From assembly GCA_028275825.1 (NCBI GenBank), contig JAPWTX010000018.1, forward strand, positions 1 to 33,852: a stretch of 33,852 nucleotides of DNA. Direction: 5' to 3'. Shown here one piece after another: positions 6,790-26,842 of this stretch. The DNA comes from Ignisphaera sp. GTDB taxonomy: Archaea > Thermoproteota > Thermoprotei_A > Sulfolobales > Ignisphaeraceae. Made by a program: the position numbers and the translations under genes. The notes beneath the pieces were generated by a model. It saw nothing but the letters and a program-made list of their open reading frames with translations, had not been told where the DNA came from and did no database searches. Each line of letters starts with the position of its first letter. Within the stretch, counting starts at the first letter, position 1.

Positions 6790-6954
6790 TAGCGCGATGA
6801 GCCACTCACCAAGACCTGTAATTACCTGTGAATAGCTGTAGATACTTAGTGAGCGGCTCATCACACTACCCCCAAGCCCACTCACCGCAGAAGCTCAAGC
6901 CCCTGCCGCCAGAGGCTTCAAAGCCCTGCGGGCCTCGGAAACTCGGGGACACCG
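6790..6954 (-). ncRNA. solo copy of the TnpB-associated structured element (copy A)
   Basis: Two arms of 24 nt (6790-6813 and 6845-6868) form a long hairpin; its four plus-strand mismatches are all G-U in a minus-strand RNA. The 31-nt loop contains three tandem 10-mers (CTGTAATTAC, CTGTGAATAG, CTGTAGATAC). Next to it lies the core shared with copy B: CCCCAAG (6870-6876) with CTCGGGG (6942-6948), CCGCAG (6885-6890) with CTGCGG (6926-6931), and an apical hairpin AGCCCCT/AGAGGCT whose sequence differs from copy B although pairing is kept. A palindromic TTTATAAA at 6977-6984 would start minus-strand transcription near 6954, just outside the core. No tnpB follows. RNA identity and strand are inference. 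Confidence 0.5.
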
Positions 6955-12067: not shown

Positions 12068-12292
12068 ATGTCTATGGCTGTTTTGTCTGTTAGGATTAAG
12101 AAGGAGCTTAAGGAGGAGGCTGAGAGGCTAGGTATAGATATTAGGCGTGTTGTTGAGAGGGCCTTAGAGGAGGAGATTGAGAGAGTAAAGATGGAGAGGC
12201 TGAGGGCATTAATTGAGGAGGCATTAAAGTATATGAATGTTTCTGTTAATGAGTGGGTTAAGACTGTTAAGGAGAGTAGGTATGAAAGGTGA
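12068..12292 (+). CDS. VapB-type antitoxin (pair 2)
   Basis: A 74-residue charged protein with an N-terminal beta strand and helices typical of ribbon-helix-helix or VapB antitoxins (LSVRIKKELKEEAERLGIDI, RRVVERALEEEIERVK). The C-terminal helix would contact the toxin. Its stop TGA overlaps a GTG (sequence GTGA, 12289-12292) that begins the vapC reading frame, giving the coupled gene pair normal for vapBC. Because that toxin gene is now split by an insertion, this antitoxin may have lost its partner. ATG 12074 is an alternative start. Confidence 0.75.
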   Translation: MSMAVLSVRIKKELKEEAERLGIDIRRVVERALEEEIERVKMERLRALIEEALKYMNVSVNEWVKTVKESRYER

Positions 12293-12339
12293 TAGGTCTG
12301 AATAGACATAGGTATTTACTTGATGCTTCAGCTGTATAC
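12289..12339 (+). pseudogene. vapC: 5' part of split vapC (pair 2)
   Basis: Starting at the GTG that overlaps the antitoxin stop, 17 codons read MIGLNRHRYLLDASAVY, the standard N-terminus of a PIN-domain VapC with the first catalytic Asp in LLDASA. After the Tyr codon at 12337-12339 the frame runs into the left end of the tnpB element and stops at 12460-12462. The rest of the toxin is found at 13685-14059. Joining Tyr (12337-12339) to Pro (13685-13687) is in frame and gives a VapC of about 141 residues, normal for the family. Confidence 0.8.
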
Positions 12340-12504
12340 CGTTTCTCGGTAGATAGTGGTTCACAGCCTCTCATATCTATTGATTTCAAGGCTCTCCACC
12401 ATCTACTTCTCAACGGTCTCCCCAAGCCCCCTCACCGCAGAAGCTCATCGCTAGTTGCCTAGCGATTCATAGCCCTGCGGGTCTCGGAAACTCGGGGTCA
12501 CTGA
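12339..12504 (-). ncRNA. TnpB-associated structured element, putative divergent ncRNA (copy B)
   Basis: A boundary hairpin pairs 12339-12359 with 12396-12416 (CCGTT/AACGG, then GTAGATAGTGG with CCACCATCTAC, plus AGCC/GGCT inside). The core follows: CCCCAAG (12420-12426) with CTCGGGG (12491-12497), CCGCAG (12435-12440) with CTGCGG (12475-12480), and an apical hairpin TCGCTA/TAGCGA (12448-12453, 12460-12465). Copy A has the same layout with different apical and boundary stems. The helix mismatches become G-U pairs on the minus strand. The TATA at 12527-12533 would start a minus-strand RNA near 12504, about 166 nt long, ending at the element boundary. Structure is seen; transcription and strand are inferred. 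Confidence 0.5.
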
Positions 12505-12508
12505 TACG

Positions 12509-12533
12509 TTTATAAGCTTCTGAAGCTTATAAA
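12509..12533. promoter_or_regulatory. perfect 25-bp palindrome with two TATA boxes upstream of tnpB
   Basis: TTTATAAGCTTC (12509-12520) and GAAGCTTATAAA (12522-12533) are perfectly inverted around one T. Each arm carries a TATA box. The right one lies 22-28 bp before the ATG of tnpB at 12555 and suits a leaderless transcript. Read on the opposite strand it would fire toward the structured element. It may act as a bidirectional promoter or a repressor site. Confidence 0.55.
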
Positions 12534-12554
12534 TTTTCTTGAGGGATTCCCCAA

Positions 12555-13646
12555 ATGACTTACATAACGCTCACGTTTCCGTTTAATGTTTGTTGTGATG
12601 TTGCGAAGAGGTTTTTGTCTACTGCATGGCTGTTCAAGATTGCTACACATAAGCTTCTTAGTGTTGCTAAGCAGTCTCCTGTTCTCCCAGGTACTGATAT
12701 TGGCTGGAAGAACACCTTTAGAAAGATTGTCTATGAGGTTATTTCTAATAGGAGGTATGCTGATGGTGTAATCATGCTTGTTAGAAGTGTTTATGAGTCT
12801 TGTAGGCAACTCGGAGTAGATTTTAGAAGTGTTGAGTTATCTGATTGGCTAATGTTTCAGCAGAGCGAGTTGGAATACCCAGCAAAAAGCATTACTCTCA
12901 AACCGAGTTACGAGTTCCACATAACAACAGCGGACTACAGCAAGAATAGCTATAGAGATGTTGTAAAGCCTATAGTACCAAAGAGCTACAGGCTTCTGCT
13001 AGAAAAGATTTTGGAGGAGAGGCAGAGGTACGCAGGTAGAGTAGCTATAAAGAGCTACGGCATTAGAAAAGATAGTCTGTGGATTCGTGGAGAAGTGCAG
13101 ATAACGATACCGATAGACTTCTACTACAAGCACATGGCAAGACGCAGAGAACCTAAAGGCAGTCTCATAGGCGGTATAGATGTAAATGTAGATAGGCTAA
13201 ACCTAGCAGTAATTGATGAGAAAGGAAACTTGCGGGACTGCAAAACCTTCTGGTTCTCAGAGGCAACGACTAGAGGGTTTTCAAGGAGGAGTGCTAAAAG
13301 CATTATAGGTGCGAAGATTCGTGAAATGCTTAGCTATGCCTATCATCACAACATTAAAACATTGTTTTTAGAGAACCCAGGTGTTCTAGGAAAGCTAAAG
13401 CTCCTATGGGTTAGGAACGGCGATAGAAAGCACGAGAACTACAACTACAAGAAAGCTGTTTTCAGAAGCTCTGTCATTGAGATGATAGCGTTGAAAACAC
13501 CACTATACGGCATAGAAGCTAAATACGTAGACCCAAAGGGGACAACAAGCTCTAGAGAGCATGACGAAATCATGAAGAGATATGGGCTAGACAGACATGC
13601 CGCATCAGCATACCTAATAGCATTAAGAGGTCTTAGAAATCAATGA
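12555..13646 (+). CDS. tnpB: TnpB / IS605 OrfB-family RuvC-like nuclease without zinc finger
   Basis: A 363-residue protein. The N-terminal 200 residues correspond to the RNA-binding half of TnpB. The RuvC-like nuclease has Asp209 in IGGIDVNVDRLNLAVI, Glu273 in TLFLENPGVLGKLKLLW and Asp346 in YGLDRHAASAYLIAL, so all three catalytic acidic residues are present. The CxxC...CxxC zinc finger usual between RuvC-II and RuvC-III is missing; only GTTSSREHDE occupies the place. TnpB proteins are RNA-guided DNA nucleases that cut the donor site after excision and so maintain the element. The gene stands alone, without tnpA. The ATG at 12555 follows a TATA box at about 25 bp. The stop overlaps the next ORF by 4 bp. 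Confidence 0.88.
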   Translation: MTYITLTFPFNVCCDVAKRFLSTAWLFKIATHKLLSVAKQSPVLPGTDIGWKNTFRKIVYEVISNRRYADGVIMLVRSVYESCRQLGVDFRSVELSDWLMFQQSELEYPAKSITLKPSYEFHITTADYSKNSYRDVVKPIVPKSYRLLLEKILEERQRYAGRVAIKSYGIRKDSLWIRGEVQITIPIDFYYKHMARRREPKGSLIGGIDVNVDRLNLAVIDEKGNLRDCKTFWFSEATTRGFSRRSAKSIIGAKIREMLSYAYHHNIKTLFLENPGVLGKLKLLWVRNGDRKHENYNYKKAVFRSSVIEMIALKTPLYGIEAKYVDPKGTTSSREHDEIMKRYGLDRHAASAYLIALRGLRNQ

Positions 13647-13684
13647 ATATGAACACTACAAATGATTATGAAGACCAAAACAGC
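13629..13684 (+). repeat. right end of the tnpB element
   Basis: GGTCTT (13629-13634), within the last codons of tnpB, pairs with AAGACC (13671-13676). Between them lies ATATGAACACTACAAATGAT (13648-13667), which recurs with two changes at 21742-21761 downstream of the second, decayed tnpB. This repetition supports assignment as an element terminus. Confidence 0.5.
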
Positions 13685-14059
13685 CCCCTAATACTTAACC
13701 TAAGGGAGAGGATCATAAAATTCAAGGATTTCTTTGTCATACTAGATCTAACCATTTATGAGATTGGTAATGCTATATGGAAAGACTATAGAAGAGGTAG
13801 GATTTCAAATCCTATTGTTGTTGCAAGGCTCTTTATTGAGGTATTGAAGGAGTTAAAGAGGTTAAGTATAGGTAGTAATGAAATTACTGATGTTCTGCAG
13901 ATCGCTATTGAGAATAATTTAACTTTTTATGACGCTTCTTATCTCTATGTAGTCAAGAGATATGGATTAAAGATCGTTACACAAGATCAAGATTTACTGA
14001 AATTTCCCGAGGCAATAAGTGTTGAAGATCTAATCAAAATTTTTAGTACAGAAAAGTAG
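13643..14059 (+). pseudogene. vapC: 3' part of split vapC, now fused to insertion-sequence sequence
   Basis: Codons 15-138 of this frame are a PIN domain without its beginning: PLILNLRERIIKFKDFFVIL, then DLTIYEIGNAIWKDYRRGRI with the conserved Glu, then NNLTFYDASYLYVVKRYGLK and IVTQDQDLL with the conserved Asp residues. The first 14 codons come from the right end of the tnpB element, and the ATG overlaps the tnpB stop (ATGA). The first catalytic Asp and first strand are missing, so a protein translated from here should be an inactive toxin, though it might still bind antitoxin. It matches the N-terminal piece at 12289-12339 in frame. Confidence 0.8.
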
Positions 14060-21417: not shown

Positions 21418-21660
21418 TTGATGAGGGGCGATGCCCCGAGGCAACTCAAATGCCCTAGATGTGGGTTTAGATCTGGCAGAGATGTAATAGCCGTGTTAAA
21501 CCTCGAGAAGAAGTATTTAACTCTCAAGGGGTGCGTGCCGTTCACCCCAATGCCCCGTGACCCTGCTCTGGAGGTAGCAGTGCTACCAATGAAGGGGTGG
21601 GCGAGGAGAAAGTCCCTAGATGCAACGAATAAACATGAACTAATGAGAATGAGCATCTAG
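21418..21660 (+). pseudogene. tnpB: C-terminal fragment of a zinc-finger-type tnpB
   Basis: Eighty codons encode only the end of a TnpB: LKCPRCGFRSGRDVIAVLNL, holding the second CxxC of the zinc finger and the last RuvC motif (GRDVIAVLN with its Asp), then the tail KGWARRKSLDATNKHELMRM. The rest of the gene is missing, so this is a remnant. Its C-terminus is of the zinc-finger type, unlike the intact TnpB at 12555, even though related termini flank both. A hairpin GGGGC-GAT-GCCCC (21423-21435) lies at its 5' edge. Confidence 0.8.
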
Positions 21661-21740
21661 GGACAAACGGTCACTACAAGATTATAGGTATCTGAATTTT
21701 ATAGACTTTATAGGATTTTCCAAGAACTTGAGTACTAATA

Positions 21741-26555: not shown

Positions 26556-26842
26556 GAGACCCTCCCTGCATCTCGAGCATATAATTTACTACTCTAAAGA
26601 ATATGTTTTATGCTTTACAAATTTTTAGTGGCATCAATTTACATGAAGCTATATGAACTCATATGAAACTCAAAATAGTTACCAATGGCTTATAAGCTCC
26701 GCAAAGCTCATGTATTTATGGTTACCCAGGTCTCTGAGAACAGCTTTAGAAGGGTGTGGGGGTTTAGGGGGCAGTGATGAGCTTGAGAACTGTCTTAAAA
26801 GAGCTTAAAACACTATAGACAACAGCTCTAGAGTGAACAGCC

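Follow-up and report, generated by a model that had tools for sequence, protein, structure and literature searches.

Where would a TnpB-like nuclease obtain its guide RNA when the structured RNA beside its gene lies upstream of it, on the opposite strand? The question is raised by a 33,852-nucleotide stretch of DNA from Ignisphaera sp. (contig JAPWTX010000018.1 of assembly GCA_028275825.1, hereafter the window), one contig of an 86-contig, 1.81 Mb genome (G000), which carries a mobile element at 12339..13683 (given on the plus strand), IS607-like by its ends. A preliminary description of this DNA had proposed a structured RNA running leftward beside the tnpB of the element, with its 3' end at the left boundary. 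Our analysis points to the same RNA: with a probability of roughly 0.8, judged from sequence, the minus strand of 12339-12502 is an independently transcribed omega-RNA scaffold gene of an IS607-like element in which tnpB is inverted.

The minus strand of 12339-12504 has a folding energy of -79.1 kcal/mol (z -8.21), which none of 200 shuffled sequences equalled, and the plus strand gave a z of -5.16; all helices named in the preliminary description fall within the minus-strand minimum-energy structure. A covariance model (R1) matched 12339-12502 with 85.9 bits. The predicted scaffold consists of two domains on the minus strand, a 5' stem-loop domain (about 12418-12502) and a 3' hairpin domain closed by CCGUU/AACGG (12339-12416), and this two-domain fold was common to every sequence examined despite very different stem sequences. 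The RNA lies directly upstream of tnpB, and divergent from it, in all 52 homologous loci with enough upstream sequence. The same layout recurs at a further 12 TnpB loci that are much more remote from the window protein in family-level similarity, which makes the arrangement an old one. Throughout the 52 loci the structure ends with ACGG/ACGC or close variants followed by a pyrimidine, and the flank beyond has no common motif past position 1. No Rfam family, RAGATH-18 included, matched the region at gathering scores.

Homologues were a check proposed in the preliminary description, and their pairing is conserved: compensatory changes occur at 25 of the 31 base pairs in an alignment of 49 sequences, with a covariation that 0 of 500 shuffles reached. 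In the same alignment 88.3% of cells were paired, against 41.7-51.6% when one arm was slid by 1-3 columns; the alignment was built from sequence and the structure drawn from it, so some structure bias is expected, which the size of the contrast makes unimportant. Chimeras made by swapping half-sequences between loci lost 11-13 kcal/mol. G-U cells outnumber A-C cells (173 vs 44), which identifies the minus strand as the RNA strand. Two of the 52 loci, in which the 5' part of the RNA is truncated (L114 and L145), were excluded from later tests.

The RNA gene has a promoter of its own. The minus strand from 12540 to 12526 reads AAGAAAA-TTTATAAG, that is, a B recognition element (BRE) and a TATA box (AAGAAAATTTATAAG, 12526..12540), which predict a transcription start near 12502-12504; the preliminary description had placed the start at about 12504, and the match to the covariance model reaches to 12502. 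In a promoter logo over 47 loci, counted from the RNA start, an A-rich BRE occupies -35 to -33 and TATA-like 6-mers are most frequent at -31 to -28; the TATA box spans about -31 to -25 and is oriented toward the RNA. The 25-nt palindrome noticed earlier (12509..12533) is indeed perfect, a 12-bp inverted repeat about one central base, and carries TATA boxes in both directions, as in a bidirectional promoter. Between this promoter and the tnpB start, 43 of 50 loci have a further perfect palindrome of at least 8 nt, located in the window at 12545..12553 just ahead of the start codon; here and at the equivalent positions it is of the type GGGATTCCCC, GGGATATACCC or GGCTATAGCC, and it appears as GGG...CCC peaks in the promoter logo. 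It is a possible operator.

The structure stops at the edge of the element, whose left boundary was confirmed by the other copies and by the joined flanks. With 12338 joined to 13684, the vapC frame is open again (LDASAVY/PLILNL, the slash marking the joint here and the boundary in the sequences below). The joined flanks align without a gap at the joint to uninterrupted vapBC homologues of two other species of the genus (G005 and G009), and a vapBC paralogue elsewhere in the same genome (G000:C21) also aligns across it. There is no target duplication, and a one-base (C) slippage of the boundary is possible. These vapBC homologues were the sole informative cases of the junction search, which found no orthologous empty sites for copies without tnpB in same-genus genomes.

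The polarity of the element was read from canonical IS607 elements (serine transposase and in-line tnpB) of the same and related genomes, which start with (G)GG/CTGTTT... and end with ...GGGACAAACGG/. Read on the minus strand, the element starts with GGGG/CTGTTTTGG... and ends with ...GAGAAACGG/, so that AAACGG/ followed by the guide flank is a right-end pattern common to both. Its 13629..13683 (minus strand, CTGTTTTGGTCTTCATAATC...) matches the canonical left ends (CTGTTTYGTATTTGATG) and is common to the copies without tnpB. Because the ends match in this way, the left boundary in the window (12339) is the IS607 right end, and the right boundary (13683) is the IS607 left end. Lack of target duplication and insertion at (G)GG are known for IS607 (PMC6188088), and both are found here together with GG at the element end. 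Model R1 also weakly matched the sense strand at the tnpB 3' end of 6 out of 7 canonical IS607 elements (E 0.006-0.15). These sequence comparisons indicate that the RNA, the guide flank and the motif flank keep canonical places relative to the transposon ends and that it is tnpB that is flipped, sharing a bidirectional promoter with the RNA. The new TnpB layout suggested in the preliminary description thus holds as to a divergent RNA with its own promoter, and does not hold as to the place of the RNA within the element. Terminal inverted repeats were considered and rejected, the ends of the main family not being inverted repeats (CCGTT vs CTGTTT); in one subfamily the two ends do resemble each other in sequence.

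The flank opposite the guide carries a putative transposon-associated motif (TAM) or IS607 target motif, GGGGG on the minus strand (13684..13688). Right flanks are C-rich over 99 mechanically called ends (1.12, 0.62, 0.39 and 0.33 bits at positions 1-4), a bias that is underestimated because end-calling took internal motifs in some loci; in the cleaner listing from the complete genome G041, CCC stands at flank positions 2-4 of all copies. Experimentally found TAMs of IS607 TnpBs are likewise G-rich, AGGAG or GAGGG (PMC11061315).

The gene next to the RNA (12555..13646, plus strand) encodes a TnpB-like nuclease of 363 amino acids with the RuvC residues D209, E273 and D346. Over 18 aligned homologues D209 and E273 are invariant and D346 is nearly so, and none of the 18 has the cysteine pairs of a C-terminal zinc finger, whose absence from the window protein had already been noted. 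The AlphaFold2 model (predicted local distance difference test score 85.8) was compared with the PDB using Foldseek; the best match was Cas12f (8j3r, E 4.7e-11), 8j12 was also among the closest folds, and an IS607-type TnpB (8iaz) matched with an E of 3.0e-5. In the same genomes, canonical IS607 TnpBs do match the model of that zinc finger, a target nucleic acid-binding domain (PF07282), with E values down to 4.1e-20. A Pfam scan gave no match to the 363-aa open reading frame (ORF). The NCBI guided_TnpB model (NF040570) matched 7 of the 18 homologues (best E 3.2e-5), the window protein falling below the cut-offs, and a profile comparison with canonical IS607 TnpBs aligned the RuvC region (E 5.6e-5, 66% probability). 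The protein may carry out RNA-guided DNA cleavage.

All characterised TnpBs have their guide RNA at the 3' end of tnpB (PMC8612924), and were the same layout to apply here the divergent RNA would not be the guide; we regard this as highly improbable. The sense strand of the last 110 nt of tnpB and 40 nt downstream gave a mean z of -0.26 over 38 loci, none being below -3, whereas the divergent RNA of the same loci gave -5.38. Moreover, only about 40 nt lie between the stop codon and the element end, and the G-rich motif would fall on the guide side. One locus (L046) was taken up as a candidate distant relative with a canonical downstream RNA and rejected; since it has a divergent upstream match too, we take its downstream match to be a copy in its own right. 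The lack of structure at the tnpB 3' end joins the covariation, the G-U bias and the conserved promoter in supporting an RNA 3' end at the left boundary, as first proposed. An RNA borne by the element that serves some other role, such as regulating tnpB or transposition, seems unlikely to us. It would be in keeping with the promoter shared with tnpB, and the binding of the RNA by TnpB is something that we infer; yet the RNA cannot be an antisense RNA of tnpB, which it does not overlap, it accompanies every tnpB of the family, it ends exactly where the element ends, as known omega-RNAs do, and its model finds the 3'-end omega-RNA places of canonical IS607 elements. That the structure acts as DNA, as a transposon-end hairpin or a binding platform for the transposase, is quite unlikely. 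Its location at an element end and its retention in copies without tnpB are what end sites would show, but the strong excess of G-U pairs on one strand is typical of an RNA, the conserved promoter is directed into the structure, the structure spans 160 nt where the opposite end needs only about 55, and IS607 ends are described as short direct repeats without inverted repeats (PMC6188088).

Four observations weigh against an omega-RNA gene with its nuclease in an IS607-like element. The protein has only weak family-level sequence matches to TnpB models. The target preference of IS607 would by itself give a G-rich flank, so that the TAM role is supported and not proven. In one subfamily (L133-L146 and L253-L258), the right-end motif AAACWG and a conserved (A)ACCC stand 5-7 variable bases apart, and this displaced CCC misfits a simple model of a TAM beside the end. 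Finally, G041 has eleven copies and no serine or Y1 transposase by Pfam. The element itself has no serine transposase gene tnpA, and four Resolvase-domain matches were found elsewhere in G000. An IS200/IS605 origin with a Y1 transposase was rejected, as no PF01797 match was found in G000 or in G041 and the ends match IS607 instead.

An omega-RNA gene of this kind could work as follows. The bidirectional promoter at about 12509-12540 would drive the RNA leftward and tnpB rightward, and transcription of the RNA would continue past 12339, the IS607 right end, into the host DNA and give the RNA a 3' tail that copies the flank. By analogy with other TnpBs, the host flank directly 3' of the scaffold (12319..12338, minus strand, UAUACAGCUGAAGCAUCAAG) is the predicted guide, its length being borrowed from known TnpB systems. 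TnpB would bind the divergent RNA and cut DNA matching the guide beside a G-rich TAM, which in the empty donor site would lie on the other flank (minus strand 5'-GGGG/TATACAGC...), the predicted cleavage target being GGGG-TATACAGCTGAAGC. By cutting the donor site the nuclease would help the element to be kept after excision, a role that has been proposed for other TnpBs. Mobilisation may depend on an IS607 serine transposase acting in trans, and RNA copies without tnpB may likewise use TnpB in trans.

Such copies are numerous. The same genome holds more than 10 further copies of the region; nearly all are without tnpB and retain some 200 nt from the left part and some 55-70 nt from the right part. 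An own-genome search found the full-length tnpB of the family in a single copy; overall there are dozens of RNA copies without tnpB. Of 147 genomes sampled from the order, 53 had RNA copies by the covariance model, with as many as 20 in one genome, and of 398 sampled from the phylum, 48 had full or partial TnpB relatives; related loci belong mostly to Desulfurococcales and Thermoproteales. Two copies in the window (6802-6953, minus strand, E 5e-12, and 26720-26840, plus strand, E 5e-9) apparently have no full-length tnpB. A remnant of a canonical IS607 tnpB C-terminus lies at 21418-21670, with a weak RNA-model match (21556-21670, E 0.0042) on the sense strand at the remnant tnpB end. The eleven RNA copies of G041 (L203-L212) are near-identical and mostly derivatives of about 300 bp with the last 23 tnpB codons. 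One family member (L130) is on a contig of a Thermococcus metagenome-assembled genome, the only clear non-crenarchaeal case, for which a binning error or a transfer is possible.

The host DNA at the insertion is a vapBC toxin-antitoxin pair split within vapC (12068-12338 and 13684-14059). A vapB-like antitoxin gene, recognized by sequence reading, occupies 12068..12292 (plus strand), the 5' part of the vapC gene for a PIN toxin lies directly left of 12339, and its 3' part is at 13684..14059 (plus strand). A start within the element is now joined in frame to this 3' half, and the resulting ORF (13643-14059) matches Pfam PIN with an E of 2.4e-6.

Among known systems, the IS607-family TnpB of ISFba1, with a right-end-derived RNA (reRNA) of RAGATH-18 origin (PMC11061315), shares with the element the IS607 type, the RuvC nuclease fold, an RNA ending at the right end and a G-rich motif at the left-end flank; in ISFba1, however, tnpB is upstream of the reRNA and in line with it, whereas here tnpB is inverted, lacks the zinc finger and stands beside an RNA with its own promoter. 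ISDra2 (IS200/IS605; PMC8612924) resembles it in an RNA of about 150 nt, a 3' guide from the flank past the right end and a TAM on the other flank, but has a sense reRNA overlapping the tnpB 3' end, the TAM TTGAT and a Y1 transposase, unlike the divergent RNA, G-rich motif and IS607-like ends found here. Canonical IS607 elements of the same crenarchaea (for example G000:C4 and L286) have the same left and right ends and a 3'-terminal hairpin before AAACGG; unlike the family described here, which is without tnpA and has an inverted tnpB of some 363 aa, they encode tnpA along with an in-line tnpB of some 436 aa. CRISPR (clustered regularly interspaced short palindromic repeats)-Cas12f provides the closest solved folds (8j3r and 8j12), but no CRISPR array is evident at the locus and the RNA ends at a transposon boundary. 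In IscB systems an omega-RNA with a 5'-terminal guide is encoded upstream of the nuclease gene and in line with it; the RNA described here is also upstream but is divergent, with the predicted guide at its 3' end. The family is large, and its small Cas12-like nucleases belong to archaea of hot springs. A divergent guide-RNA gene ending at the transposon edge appears to be an arrangement not previously described for TnpB-type nucleases in open-access papers, a search of that literature within PMC having found no divergent omega-RNA or inverted tnpB.

With an RNA that has no Rfam match at gathering scores and a protein missed by Pfam, both components are overlooked by annotation pipelines, and the family is a source of candidate RNA-guided nucleases that are hyperthermophilic, zinc-finger-less and of roughly 363 aa. 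We tentatively propose, as an idea somewhat short of even odds, that Thermoproteota hold a TnpB clade in which the guide RNA is uncoupled from the nuclease mRNA, with its own RNA gene and an inverted tnpB, and in which the many tnpB-less RNA copies of a genome act as dispersed trans-acting guides for one or two nucleases, like a scattered CRISPR array protecting all insertion sites; genomes with up to 20 RNA copies and one or two nucleases offer a clear test of such guides. If the separate, divergent guide-RNA gene is real, the coupling of guide and nuclease would not be obligatory, and guide genes standing apart from their effector may mark a stage in the evolution of Cas12 from TnpB.
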